Source: Nitrospiraceae bacterium (GTDB taxonomy: Bacteria > Nitrospirota > Thermodesulfovibrionia > UBA6902). From it: a stretch of DNA of 41,507 nucleotides. The notes below the pieces were generated by a model, which saw only the letters and a list, made by a program, of their open reading frames with translations, had not been told where the DNA came from and made no database searches. Positions within the stretch are counted from its first letter, which is position 1, and each line of letters starts with the position of its first letter. This document shows, one piece after another, positions 31,751 to 34,491 of the stretch. The stretch spans positions 1 through 41,507 of the forward strand of contig QZJG01000027.1 of the NCBI GenBank assembly GCA_003599275.1, in the 5' to 3' direction. The translations under genes were made by a program, and so were the position numbers.

Positions 31751-32026
31751 TCAGTACTCCTGCCATTCAAACGGAAGGGAGTGTTTCTTTTTGCTATTAC
31801 ATTCCTTACAGGCCGGAACAACGTTATTCTTTACTGATCTCCCTCCCCGTATGATTGGGACGATATGGTCCATGGTCAAACCTCCGGGCTGGACTTCTCT
31901 CCCACAGTAATAACATTTCCCTTCGGCACATTTTAGTTTCCACCACTGCGTCTTTCGAAGGTCCCGCGCCTTCTGTTTTTCCTTCCTGATGTCCTGATCA
32001 GTAACCGTCGAAATAAAATGATCCAT
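31751..32026 (-). CDS. Small HNH endonuclease-like protein
   Basis: 91 residues; GAGGT about 9 bp upstream. KCYYCGREVQPGGLTMDHIVPIIRGG (two adjacent motifs) and NNVVPACKECNSKKK form an HNH/ββα-metal fold: a zinc knuckle CxxC ... CxxC and the DH-I/P-N pattern of the nuclease. It has no additional domain. Such small HNH proteins are common housekeeping-like genes in this type of genome, of unknown target. It reads away from the csp region and its start is 27 bp from the left copy of the long inverted repeat at 32053. Confidence 0.88.
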   Translation of the reverse strand: MDHFISTVTDQDIRKEKQKARDLRKTQWWKLKCAEGKCYYCGREVQPGGLTMDHIVPIIRGGRSVKNNVVPACKECNSKKKHSLPFEWQEY

Positions 32027-32052
32027 TATGCTCAGACCTCACTTATTGATCT

Positions 32053-32125
32053 TCCCTGCAGCAGAAACCGCAGGGAATCTAATGTAAGGAATTTCCTTTT
32101 ATTACATTCGCTCGCTATTCATTTA
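32053..32125. repeat. Left copy of long inverted repeat flanking the first csp gene
   Basis: This 73-bp stretch from TCCCTGCAGC to ATTCATTTA returns in inverted orientation at 32661-32763. It contains a short hairpin (CCCTGCAG...CGCAGGG) and a TTACATTCGCTCGCT motif. Confidence 0.65.
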
Positions 32126-32210
32126 AAAAATATCATATGCAAAAACATTGATAAAGCACAACAGTTAAAAAAGTGTAAATATGAAGAGATGCGGGAAGCA
32201 GCCGGGGCAT

Positions 32211-32240
32211 TTGACTTTTTATAATAAAAGATGCCATGAT
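32211..32240 (+). promoter_or_regulatory. Promoter of the first csp gene (TTGACT-18-CATGAT)
   Basis: TTGACT at 32211-32216 and CATGAT at 32235-32240 with an 18-bp spacer. The second csp gene has the same -35 and the same spacer length, supporting the call. Transcription would start near 32247, giving a leader of about 110 nt. GGCAT (32206) and ATGCC (32231) form a flanking inverted pair. Confidence 0.5.
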
Positions 32241-32256
32241 TAACACGAAGTTTTAT

Positions 32257-32329
32257 GAGTTTTTGAAACGAGCCAGACCGCAAAGACTTCAAACTTTGCG
32301 GTTTTTTTACGAGTCAAATTTCAAAACTC
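32257..32329 (+). promoter_or_regulatory. Structured csp leader: terminator enclosed by long-range stem
   Basis: TGAGTTTTTGAAA (around 32256-32268) can pair with TTTCAAAACTCA (32319-32330) with one bulged T, enclosing the terminator hairpin at 32278-32301. The two alternatives suggest a folding switch that may set read-through into csp. Fold is predicted by eye only. Confidence 0.45.
32278..32308 (+). terminator. Intrinsic terminator in the leader of the first csp gene
   Basis: CCGCAAAG (32278-32285) / CTTTGCGG (32294-32301), a perfect 8-bp stem with an 8-nt loop, followed directly by seven T residues (32302-32308), 50 bp before the csp ATG. The position between promoter and gene is that of an attenuator. 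Confidence 0.75.
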
Positions 32330-32357
32330 AGTTAATCAAATAAGGAGGGAAATCAGA

Positions 32358-32561
32358 ATGGCAAAGGGAACTGTAAAATGGTTCAATGAGTCCAAGGGGT
32401 TCGGTTTCATTACCCAGGATGACGGTGGGCCGGATGTTTTTGCGCACTATTCCGAAATCAAGGGCGATGGTTTCAAAAGCCTGGCCGAAGGCGATGCCGT
32501 GAGCTTTGATGTAGTTAAAGGCGACAAAGGCCCGAAAGCAATAAATATCGTAAAGCTCTAA
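32358..32561 (+). CDS. Cold-shock domain protein (first copy)
   Basis: 67 residues, single cold-shock domain. AAGGAGGG precedes the ATG. The RNP1 motif KGFGFI and RNP2-like VFAHYSE (in place of VFVHFS) are visible, so it should bind single-stranded RNA/DNA through aromatic residues. Product is the CspA/CspB type RNA chaperone that melts mRNA structure. It is one of two copies 1.5 kb apart, both with a terminator in the leader, so expression is probably controlled by attenuation or temperature-dependent folding (inference). Confidence 0.95.
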
Positions 32562-32565
32562 CCCG

Positions 32566-32598
32566 GAAAGCAGTTCCCGGCAACCGGGAACTGCTTTC
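32566..32598 (+). terminator. Long perfect hairpin after the first csp gene
   Basis: GAAAGCAGTTCCCGG (32566-32580) and CCGGGAACTGCTTTC (32584-32598) pair over 15 bp around a CAA loop. Only a weak T/A stretch follows, so it is either a terminator of poor efficiency or an mRNA 3'-end protecting hairpin. Confidence 0.6.
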
Positions 32599-32660
32599 TC
32601 AATAGACCGCTGGATCTTCTTTCTTCTCAATCTTTGACCGCTCTTCAGTAATCGGGCTGT

Positions 32661-32763
32661 TAAATGAATAGCGAGCATATTCCCTGAAGCTTGCTGCAGG
32701 GTCAAGCGAGCAAATGTAATAAATATATCCTTACATTAGATTCCCTGTAGCAAGCTGCAGGGA
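32661..32763. repeat. Right copy of the long inverted repeat, with an internal duplication
   Basis: This is the reverse complement of 32053-32125, sharing TAAATGAATAGCGAGC, AATGTAAT and CCTTACATTAGATTCCCTG. It carries about 34 bp extra with a second CCCTGAAGC...GCTGCAGGG hairpin, so a unit was duplicated within it. Together the copies enclose csp and about 535 bp. Confidence 0.65.
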
Positions 32764-32814
32764 ATATCAATTTTCACCGTAAAATACGTTTATTAATTGT
32801 TCAGGGAGGCGACT

Positions 32815-33006
32815 ATGGCAATGCGTTCCGGCATGTACAAAAGCAATAAGCGAAAAAAAGAACTGCTGCGACAGAAAAAACAGGAAGAGAAAAGGCTGAA
32901 ACGACAGAATAACGTTAAGGGCGCTTCTCAGTCCCCCGAAGGAACAGACCCGACCGATATGGTCCCTGAATCTTCCGGAGATGCACCCGGAGCAGAAACC
33001 GATTAA
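32815..33006 (+). CDS. Small basic coiled protein of the cold-shock island
   Basis: 63 residues; GGAGGC before the ATG at 32815 decides the start over a longer frame. The N-terminal half MAMRSGMYKSNKRKKELLRQKK (two adjacent parts) is lysine-rich and helical, and the second half is acidic and disordered (GTDPTDMVPESSGDAPG). Proteins of this type occur beside csp genes in related genomes as far as I recall. RNA or ribosome binding is plausible from its charge but unproven. Confidence 0.65.
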   Translation: MAMRSGMYKSNKRKKELLRQKKQEEKRLKRQNNVKGASQSPEGTDPTDMVPESSGDAPGAETD

Positions 33007-33049
33007 TCTTTCAACCAATAACAATATTAAACTTTGGAAGGACAAGAAT

Positions 33050-33481
33050 ATGCTTAATAATTATTCGGCAGGTGGCTATATTGCAGCATGGTGTACAAAA
33101 TGCAGGCTGGAATTAGGTCATACGATTATTGCCATGCTCGATAATTCCCCTAAACGGGTTAAATGTAATACCTGTAACGGAGAACACAACTTTCGCACTT
33201 CTCCATCCGAGAAAAAACAGGCAAAACCGGAACACTCTGCAAAAAAAACAAAATCTCAGAAAACAAATTACAACGAATATATGATCCGGTTAACAAGTTG
33301 CAATCTTTCTACTGCTAAAAAATACAGCATAAAAGGAAATTTCGGAAAAGATGATCTGATAGACCATCCTGCGTTTGGAATCGGAATAGTTTTATCTGTA
33401 ATTCAGATCAATAAAATAAAAATCTTTTTTAAGGATGGACCCAGGCTGCTTATTCAAAACAGTGAAGCGGCAGCGCAATAG
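33050..33481 (+). CDS. Zinc-ribbon protein with a PcrA-C-terminal-like domain
   Basis: 143 residues from the ATG at 33050 with GGAAGGAC upstream. N-terminal zinc ribbon CTKC...CNTC (about residues 17-48) in a region with GYIAAWCTKCRLELGHTI; a lysine-rich linker (about 58-80); and a C-terminal DHPAFGIGIVLSVIQINKIKIFFKDG block that matches the HPxFGxGxV Tudor-like domain found at the C-terminus of PcrA/UvrD helicases and in small bacterial proteins. Probable nucleic-acid or RNA-polymerase associated function, by analogy with that domain. Between the two csp genes. Confidence 0.7.
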   Translation: MLNNYSAGGYIAAWCTKCRLELGHTIIAMLDNSPKRVKCNTCNGEHNFRTSPSEKKQAKPEHSAKKTKSQKTNYNEYMIRLTSCNLSTAKKYSIKGNFGKDDLIDHPAFGIGIVLSVIQINKIKIFFKDGPRLLIQNSEAAAQ

Positions 33482-33542
33482 CCCCAAGGCGCGGCAGCAG
33501 TGACAGACTTCAGTGTAGCCAAAAAGCAACGGAGAACAATGT

Positions 33543-33743
33543 ATGAATGGGACCAGACGTTCCGGTATAAGACCCGGGTTGCATGTTTCAATAGTCCTGA
33601 AAAAGGACCAGCTGTCAGGGAAACTGACTCAGGGAATTGTAAAAGATATTTTAACTAATTCACCTGTGCATCCACATGGCATTAAAGTTCGTTTGATTAG
33701 CGGTGAAATAGGACGGGTAAAAGAAATTATCGGGCTTCATTGA
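33543..33743 (+). CDS. YwbE family protein (DUF2196)
   Basis: 66 residues; GGAGAAC before the ATG. GIRPGLHVSIVLKKDQLSGKLTQGIVKDILTNSPVHPHGIKVRL is the near-invariant block of YwbE, a small beta-barrel protein of unknown function that occurs in many Firmicutes and deltaproteobacteria. The stop codon lies within the promoter of the second csp gene. Its place in the cold-shock island is consistent with an RNA-related role, not demonstrated. Confidence 0.88.
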   Translation: MNGTRRSGIRPGLHVSIVLKKDQLSGKLTQGIVKDILTNSPVHPHGIKVRLISGEIGRVKEIIGLH

Positions 33744-33769
33744 CTAAGCATGTTCGTACATGCTATGCT
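33740..33769 (+). promoter_or_regulatory. Promoter and palindrome before the second csp gene
   Basis: TTGACT at 33740-33745 and TATGCT at 33764-33769, spacer 18 bp. Filling the spacer is AGCATGT-TCGT-ACATGCT (33747-33764), a perfect palindrome with 7-bp arms, possibly an operator or a 3' hairpin of the YwbE gene. Confidence 0.55.
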
Positions 33770-33804
33770 TATACCAGAATTTTAGAAGTTTTTGCGCTAC
33801 ACAG

Positions 33805-33839
33805 GGCCACAAAGACTTTTTGACTTTGTGGCCTTTTTT
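33805..33839 (+). terminator. Intrinsic terminator in the leader of the second csp gene
   Basis: GGCCACAAAG (33805-33814) and CTTTGTGGCC (33824-33833), a perfect 10-bp stem with a 9-nt loop, followed by six T (33834-33839). It sits about 47 bp before the csp ATG, the same place as the terminator in front of the first csp gene. Confidence 0.8.
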
Positions 33840-33886
33840 CTTGAGACCTTCTGAGATTTAGTCTAAGAGAAAAGGAGGCAAAAGAA

Positions 33887-34087
33887 ATGGCACAAGGAAC
33901 CGTGAAATGGTTTAACGACAGCAAAGGTTTTGGATTCATTACGAGTGAAGACGGAAGTGAAGCTTTTGTTCACCATACGTCCATCCAGGGTAATGGCTTT
34001 AAGAGCCTTGCCGAAGGTGACAAAGTAAGCTTTGATACTGAAAAAGGCCCGAAAGGCCCCAAAGCTATCAATGTAGTCAAACTGTAA
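33887..34087 (+). CDS. Cold-shock domain protein (second copy)
   Basis: 66 residues, AAAGGAGGC before the ATG. KGFGFI and [14 protein letters not shown] are the nucleic-acid-binding strands; it is closely similar to the first copy (shared [20 protein letters not shown]) but not identical. RNA chaperone as above. The leader contains a terminator hairpin and a promoter with a palindrome, so this copy is likely regulated in the same way as the first. A strong terminator follows immediately. Confidence 0.95.
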
Positions 34088-34146: not shown

Positions 34147-34491
34147 ATGAACAATAGAAAAAATACGGCAAGGAGAGAATTACAGCAGCAGAGACTTGAC
34201 GCAGGCTTTGTATCTTCGCACTACCCTGAGGTTGCAAGCATCGTCATCAACATGATGTACGATCAGAGGGGGACAAAATCGCTGTCACGTATCGTTAATT
34301 TCTTTCCCGGCAGTTACGCCTTTTTTAAAGTAGCCTGTTTGAACAACGACTGTGTCGACGGCGGGTTTGACCTCACTCAGGTCATAACCTCGATGATCAG
34401 AAACCACAACAAGGCGTCAAACGGAAATCTCAGTTGTGAATCAGCCGAACACTCGACTATTGCCTACGAAATTGCGATACAATACGCGTAA
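34147..34491 (+). CDS. Uncharacterised small protein at the end of the cold-shock island
   Basis: 114 residues, GGAGGA before the ATG. No domain recognised. N-terminus is basic (MNNRKNTARRELQQQR), the central part has CLNNDCVDGGFDLTQVITSMI, and a third cysteine (GNLSC) follows, a possible metal site. Predicted mostly helical. It follows a strong terminator, so it needs its own promoter, or it relies on read-through. Confidence 0.65.
   Translation: MNNRKNTARRELQQQRLDAGFVSSHYPEVASIVINMMYDQRGTKSLSRIVNFFPGSYAFFKVACLNNDCVDGGFDLTQVITSMIRNHNKASNGNLSCESAEHSTIAYEIAIQYA

Follow-up and report, generated by a model that had tools for sequence, protein, structure and literature searches.

Why should two cold-shock genes of one bacterium each carry an intrinsic transcription terminator between promoter and start codon? 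The question is raised by a 41,507-nucleotide (nt) stretch of DNA from a Nitrospiraceae bacterium (contig QZJG01000027.1 of assembly GCA_003599275.1, positions 1 to 41,507; hereafter the window), in which csp1 (32358-32561, plus strand) and csp2 (33887-34087, plus strand) encode cold-shock domain proteins (Csp) of 67 and 66 amino acids (aa) that match the Pfam CSD domain at 7e-31 and 4e-28, respectively. The answer that we consider probable is that the sequence in front of both genes is a cis-acting csp attenuator of about 110 nt at the 5' end of the mRNA, which chooses between an antiterminator and a terminator, the choice perhaps being set by Csp bound to a U-rich strand.

As a preliminary description of this DNA had claimed, both csp genes lie behind a promoter, a leader and an intrinsic terminator. 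In each case TTGACT, an 18-nt spacer and an extended -10 element (CATGAT at 32235-32240 in the csp1 promoter, 32211-32240; TATGCT at 33764-33769 in the csp2 promoter, 33740-33769; both plus strand) are followed by AGTTTTTG, a hairpin containing CAAAGACTT, a run of seven or six T residues and, after 49 nt (csp1) or 47 nt (csp2), the ATG. The two promoters are among 11 promoter-like sites in 4 kb, for which shuffling gives an expectation of 6.0 (standard deviation 2.2). The pattern AGTTTTTGN{8,32}CRCAAAGACTT occurs at two places in the window, exactly the two leaders, and has no match in 100 shuffles. The hairpin, recognised from the sequence and from covariation over leaders, is an intrinsic terminator (P2): in csp1 (32278-32308) it has an 8-bp stem with arms CCGCAAAG (32278-32285) and CTTTGCGG (32294-32301), loop ACTTCAAA and T7, and in csp2 (33805-33839) a 10-bp stem with arms GGCCACAAAG (33805-33814) and CTTTGTGGCC (33824-33833), loop ACTTTTTGA and T6. 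A crude hairpin scanner of the window listed neither hairpin; the stem is backed by covariation over 76 leaders. Upstream of P2 lies a candidate antiterminator strand, which in csp1 is the U-rich GAGTTTTTG (32257-32265), also a candidate Csp site, and in csp2 is AGAAGTTTTTG (33784-33794), with 11 contiguous pairs to CAAAGACTTTT; AAGTTTTTG is complementary to CAAAGACTT, the antiterminator target within P2 (32281-32289 and 33810-33818). An outer helix (P1), which like this complementarity is absent from the preliminary description, joins the first ~20 nt to the stretch before the Shine-Dalgarno sequence (AAGGAGG at 32342-32348 and 33872-33878) and encloses P2. Its arms in csp2, GAATTTTAGAAG (33777-33788) and CTTCTGAGATTT (33848-33859), form 12 contiguous pairs (GAAUUUUAGAAG/CUUCUGAGAUUU); in csp1 the arms (32250-32268 and 32319-32336) come from a constrained fold only, and the cut of the csp1 leader used in the permutation test chose a different pairing.

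The terminator and the outer helix carry the strongest comparative evidence. A covariance model built from 25 leaders (R1) and run on 99 sources gave 76 sense matches at an expect value (E) of 1e-5 or better, 25 of them being the model's own sequences; the statistics of all tests ignore kinship among leaders. In the alignment of 76 leaders, itself fitted to the P2 stem, 94.9% of P2 cells are paired, two-sided changes occur in 8 of 12 pairs, and no shuffle out of 500 is as good. P1 arms score 15.03 with their cognate partners and 13.36 (standard deviation 0.30) when permuted, with 0 of 5000 permutations as good among the 91 leaders possessing all landmarks; in some leaders P1 is apparently replaced, as judged by eye, by a local hairpin. 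A sigma70-like site (8 of 12 or better) lies just upstream of the element in 75 of the 76 aligned leaders, with the end of the -10 at a distance of 4 nt in 47 of the 75 and of 3-5 nt in 61, and between hairpin and gene in 10 of the 76. Because the promoter-like site directly adjoins the leader, transcripts should start with the 5' arm and run through the hairpin. Taking as the mark of an attenuator a conserved, covarying intrinsic terminator between promoter and start codon, we find it in comparative data from the window's class and part of its phylum, and the attenuation proposed earlier is well supported in this respect. On the same comparative footing, the terminator, U-tract, promoter-like site, P1 and two complementary blocks are regular parts of the leader.

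The leader is also widespread. CSD matches were found in 60 of the 61 genomes surveyed (the window's genome and 60 relatives), and 115 csp open reading frames (ORFs) at 114 loci, drawn from the best matches listed, were inspected, one ORF having too short an upstream stretch. Absence of terminators from related csp leaders had been named as evidence against the preliminary description; a terminator-like hairpin is instead present in 85 of the 114 whose upstream stretch measures 120 nt or more, and 56 of those 85 also carry both conserved blocks, while 27 of the 114 upstream regions lack all three features (hairpin and two blocks). Fifteen loci were left out of the R1 search (L005, L006, L015, L018, L029, L032, L186, L187, L190, L195, L197, L205, L213, L224 and L243); among these, L190 and L213 have the hairpin only, like L193, L205 has the hairpin and one block, L029 offers too little sequence, and the others have none of the three features. 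Within the window's own genome (3.05 Mb, where the window is contig C35) there are six CSD matches and three R1 matches: a third csp (L003), which the preliminary description does not mention, carries the same leader on its own strand, and the stretches upstream of the remaining three (L002, L005 and L006) have neither conserved block and no hairpin.

The search of related genomes with a covariance model, suggested in the preliminary description, yields R1 matches throughout much of the window's class (182 of 230 genomes), with up to seven leader copies per genome. Of 395 genomes taken from the phylum, 157 have a match, three families outside the class being represented; so do 9 of 118 relatives of a Deltaproteobacteria-labelled metagenome-assembled genome (MAG) and 3 of 60 relatives of a Schekmanbacteria MAG, where each MAG is counted among its own relatives. 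Weak matches (E 6.7e-5 to 6.3e-4) make up three of the nine: two belong to a second leader family described below, and around the third, L333, there is no csp in the stretch inspected. R1 matches none of the ten f13 genomes listed, three of which were surveyed for csp and have one csp each. Among the matches listed by name (80, of at least 120), 74 bear Nitrospira, Nitrospirae, Nitrospirota or Thermodesulfovibrio-type names. Six csp leaders (L230, L238, L245, L261, L264 and L265) show by eye an outer GAAG...CUUC pairing and a UAUAAGGAGG-like ribosome site, with no U-tract terminator scored; this type is perhaps a derived, translation-only form of the leader.

How the terminator might be controlled is suggested by its partner block. 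AAGUUUUUG is near-invariant and complementary to CAAAGACUU of the terminator, and the two cannot pair while P2 is complete. Two of the most conserved blocks of the leader are in this way complementary and in competition with the terminator, which makes an antiterminator plausible. This pairing occupies 91.4% of cells as against 50-64.5% in slid registers, and it has five pairs with two-sided change as against 2.4 in shuffles (5 of 500 shuffles as good). The loop columns complementary to the U-rich strand (67, 68, 70 and 71) are kept in 73, 73, 71 and 73 of the 76 leaders, and the other loop columns (72, 73, 76 and 77) in 63, 32, 51 and 37, so that conservation drops where complementarity stops. 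For csp2, 32 of 3000 dinucleotide shuffles pair as well as the antiterminator.

Structure predictions place the two folds in a temporal order. Among the 76 aligned leaders, 69 met the pair or Shine-Dalgarno criteria for the energy calculations, 74 those for nascent folds and 68 those for Shine-Dalgarno access. In predicted nascent chains at 37 C, 64 of 74 leaders pass through a length whose minimum free energy structure contains the antiterminator; once the U-tract is complete, 68 of 74 have the terminator as their minimum free energy structure, with similar results at 10-55 C. The mean energy gap between the folds in an equilibrium model is 6.6, 6.0, 5.6 and 5.6 kcal/mol at 10, 25, 37 and 55 C (n = 69). 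Temperature over this range does not flip the fold preference, and an RNA thermometer, as considered in the preliminary description, finds no support as an equilibrium device and was rejected. Cold might still act on the leader kinetically. Since the terminator is favoured at every temperature, antitermination requires kinetics or a factor. The same folds bear on translation: the mean unpaired probability of the Shine-Dalgarno sequence in 68 leaders is 0.55 with P2 enforced and 0.29 with the antiterminator enforced, access with the antiterminator being lower by more than 0.2 in 38 of the 68 and higher in 2. As csp2 departs from this trend, a translational role is kept as a suggestion only. No conserved small ORF that might encode a leader peptide was noticed in the leaders inspected, by eye and with no formal test.

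These elements can be assembled into a working model. The nascent RNA would first form the antiterminator AAGUUUUUG:CAAAGACUU. If P2 displaced it in time, RNA polymerase would stop after about 63-64 nt; if P2 came too late, csp would be transcribed, and the full-length RNA could refold to P1 and P2, with the Shine-Dalgarno sequence more open on average. The signal may be free Csp, which is the least certain step. Bound to the U-rich block while this is single-stranded, Csp would keep the antiterminator from forming and so promote termination, and we favour negative feedback for this reason. In the cold, Csp might be drawn off to other RNAs and strand exchange might slow, so that readthrough would rise; this, too, is among the least certain steps. 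The candidate Csp site is proposed from sequence likeness alone: the heptamer of Bacillus subtilis CspB is GTCTTTG/C (PMC7825780), and the leader's GUUUUUG is one base off. Outside the class, 28 leader loci were checked, of which five (L303, L308, L318, L322 and L324) contain GUCUUUG exactly.

Several results, however, weigh against an antiterminator governed in this manner. Among row shuffles, 107 of 500 reach the antiterminator's share of paired cells and 233 of 500 its covariation score, and a cognate test on 25 variants, selected with a list of family members that we compiled, shows no covariation (15.50 versus 15.52). Over 107 leaders, 881 of 5000 permutations pair as well. The pairings GAGUAUUUUGU:GCAAAGUAUUC in L242 and CAAAAAC:GUUUUUG in L305, L307 and L313 look compensatory as single cases, but the whole set fails the covariation test. 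A terminator could be scored in 111 of 141 leaders, and in 51 of the 111 the best upstream complement outdoes nearly all of 60 shuffles, which it does not in the rest; the csp1 strand taken alone is unremarkable, being equalled by 669 of 3000 shuffles. Predicted stability favours the terminator fold by a mean of 5.6-6.6 kcal/mol, the csp2 Shine-Dalgarno sequence is base-paired in the predictions for either fold, and the Csps of Escherichia coli act in the opposite direction, as antiterminators (PMC9765468). Of the antiterminator system put forward in the preliminary description, the conserved, complementary and competing blocks stand; the covariation expected between them was not found.

The direction of the Csp effect is where the closest alternative arises. 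Csp on the U-rich strand or on the U-tract might instead melt the terminator, so that Csp made in the cold would drive its own synthesis. E. coli CspA, CspC and CspE make an internal intrinsic terminator less efficient, and overproduced CspD disturbs the termination of small RNAs (PMC9765468), while loss of CspB and CspD in B. subtilis lowered readthrough in the pyr operon (PMC8307031), all of which would agree with such positive feedback; the leader sequence as it stands would suit it too. The same B. subtilis losses raised readthrough at the man and lia terminators, where CspB and CspD favoured termination (PMC8307031), and the sign of the Csp effect on terminators thus differs between E. 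coli and B. subtilis and between sites (PMC8307031, PMC9765468). Positive feedback also gives no reason for the conservation of the loop ACUU and the upstream AAGUUUUUG over the stretch in which they are complementary, and we regard it as unlikely, though still the likeliest of the alternatives.

Less likely again, and about equal to each other, are two readings that dispense with Csp. Temperature itself might decide the outcome, through how quickly antiterminator and terminator exchange strands; the predicted early formation of the antiterminator in most leaders, which leaves the terminator a short window to displace it, would suit such a pure RNA cold sensor, but predicted equilibria and nascent paths are nearly constant from 10 to 55 C, and the near-invariant primary sequence suggests recognition besides pairing. 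Alternatively, nothing might switch at all, P2 constitutively damping expression and P1 protecting the 5' end of the mRNA. That P1 and P2 have the best comparative support and that the antiterminator failed its covariation test argue for a constitutive terminator of this kind; the inner stem, the loop and the upstream U-rich block are, however, more conserved than a plain terminator should need. Very improbable, finally, is that the hairpin only ends transcription of upstream genes and that the csp promoter lies downstream of it. A same-strand DUF2196 gene (33543-33743, plus strand) does closely precede csp2, ending right at its promoter, and a 68-aa plus-strand ORF (32018-32224) ends near the csp1 promoter. 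Against this, the promoter-like sites lie upstream of the hairpin in nearly all leaders and downstream of it in few (75 and 10 of 76), P1 pairs sequence from both sides of the hairpin, and the gene before csp1, HNH endonuclease-like, is on the opposite strand (31751-32026, minus strand). An attenuator, perhaps with negative feedback by Csp, remains the preferred reading.

The genes behind the leader suggest what it may control. A gene-blind scan with R1 gave at least 120 matches, and among the 120 stretches listed and examined, 112 lead into csp, three directly precede homologues of a 114-aa ORF of the window, one (L129) precedes a PhoU_div/DUF47 gene in place of csp (L129:3620-4370), and four run off the contig. 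Outside the class, a CSD lies within 600 nt of the leader in 25 of 30 loci; divergent leader copies at L307 and L313 precede RRM proteins, the leader at L320 precedes a 114-aa homologue, and L310 and L316 were left unjudged, the stretch inspected being without the leader and the match probably near a contig edge. The 114-aa protein of the window (34147-34491, plus strand) belongs to a family without a known domain (no Pfam and no NCBIfam match), whose members elsewhere lie behind csp or directly behind the leader. The family is present in 149 of 229 class genomes, and its gene lies within 1.6 kb in 40 of the 93 csp leaders with enough sequence among the gene-blind matches listed. Its cysteines, CLxxxC and a third further on, are invariant in 12 of 12 aligned sequences, and an AlphaFold2 model has a mean predicted local distance difference test (pLDDT) score of 45.8 and a predicted TM score (pTM) of 0.33. 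The leader points to genes that may work with Csp, the RRM proteins and the 114-aa family. A broader proposal, which we offer tentatively and think doubtful as it stands, is that the leader senses free RNA-chaperone activity, responding to how much Csp in the cell is unoccupied; attenuation and then a translational refolding step would set how much Csp, RRM-type RNA-binding protein and 114-aa protein is made.

A further csp leader, unrelated in sequence and from another lineage, was found via the weak R1 matches L334 and L335 and is present at 15 of 30 csp loci there (L339, L355 and 13 others). Its 5' arm, GUARGUUGUAAGRAG, resembles a ribosome site, a terminator follows in those read by eye, and its 3' arm, UUACAACUUAC, has a second complement in the ribosome site and start region, whose sequence is GUGAGUUGUA at 10 of the 15 loci; the 3' arm can accordingly pair with the 5' arm or with the ribosome site. 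Blocking the 5' arm left mean Shine-Dalgarno access unchanged in these leaders (0.38 and 0.38, n = 15). Because this unrelated leader has the same layout of 5' arm, terminator and 3' arm, the design may have arisen more than once.

The surroundings of csp1 are also of note. Near-perfect inverted repeats (32045-32126 and 32660-32771) flank csp1 and its leader, with four arm pairs of 17-20 nt that are 94-100% complementary and 533-691 nt apart. In this arrangement csp1 resembles a cargo gene within a small mobile cassette, or one of the miniature inverted-repeat transposable element (MITE) type.

Most of what is known about Csp autoregulation comes from E. coli and B. subtilis, and in the E. coli cspA 5' untranslated region (UTR) refolding is thought to open the ribosome site; the model of this thermoregulator is not known to include a leader terminator. 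The leader described here is likewise a structured 5' leader of a cold-shock gene, but it is about 110 nt long and falls below the gathering score of the cspA family, RF01766. No Rfam family reaches gathering over csp in the window or in eight other leader loci; the lax RF01766 matches in the window score 54.1 and 47.7 bits against a gathering threshold of 78, and their alignments span the csp coding region, to which we attribute the score. Nor was such a leader found in the open-licence literature searched, and the earlier statement that no described class has this form holds within these searches. It looks like an undescribed RNA switch for RNA-helper (Csp) proteins: a short element, often in several copies per genome, with simple predictions, namely that termination would yield an RNA of about 63-64 nt and that Csp would act in opposite directions under the two feedback models.

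Protein-controlled leaders with a terminator and an antiterminator are familiar from the B. subtilis pyr genes with PyrR and trp genes with TRAP. The csp leader would share with them a terminator and a mutually exclusive, here candidate, antiterminator, one strand being a candidate protein site; in contrast, the proposed regulator here is an RNA chaperone encoded downstream, no metabolite link was seen, and no leader peptide was seen by eye. Among cold-shock genes, published work describes the Agrobacterium cspA leader as an RF01766-like thermosensor seen solely within the full mRNA (PMC3738593) and counts cspB and cspG of E. coli among the fusions whose level goes up in a rho mutant (PMC7815308). 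The cold-shock boxes of B. subtilis cspB and cspC are likewise conserved blocks in csp 5' UTRs, and a point mutation in or near the box raised cspC-lacZ expression about twofold; unlike the blocks of the csp leader, they are not described, in the part of the source available, as a terminator/antiterminator pair (PMC8307031). Closest in principle is antitermination by the E. coli CspA family (Bae 2000, as cited in PMC8307031 and PMC9765468), where Csp likewise alters intrinsic termination. There, however, Csp acts at a terminator inside another operon, whereas here a dedicated element precedes csp itself.

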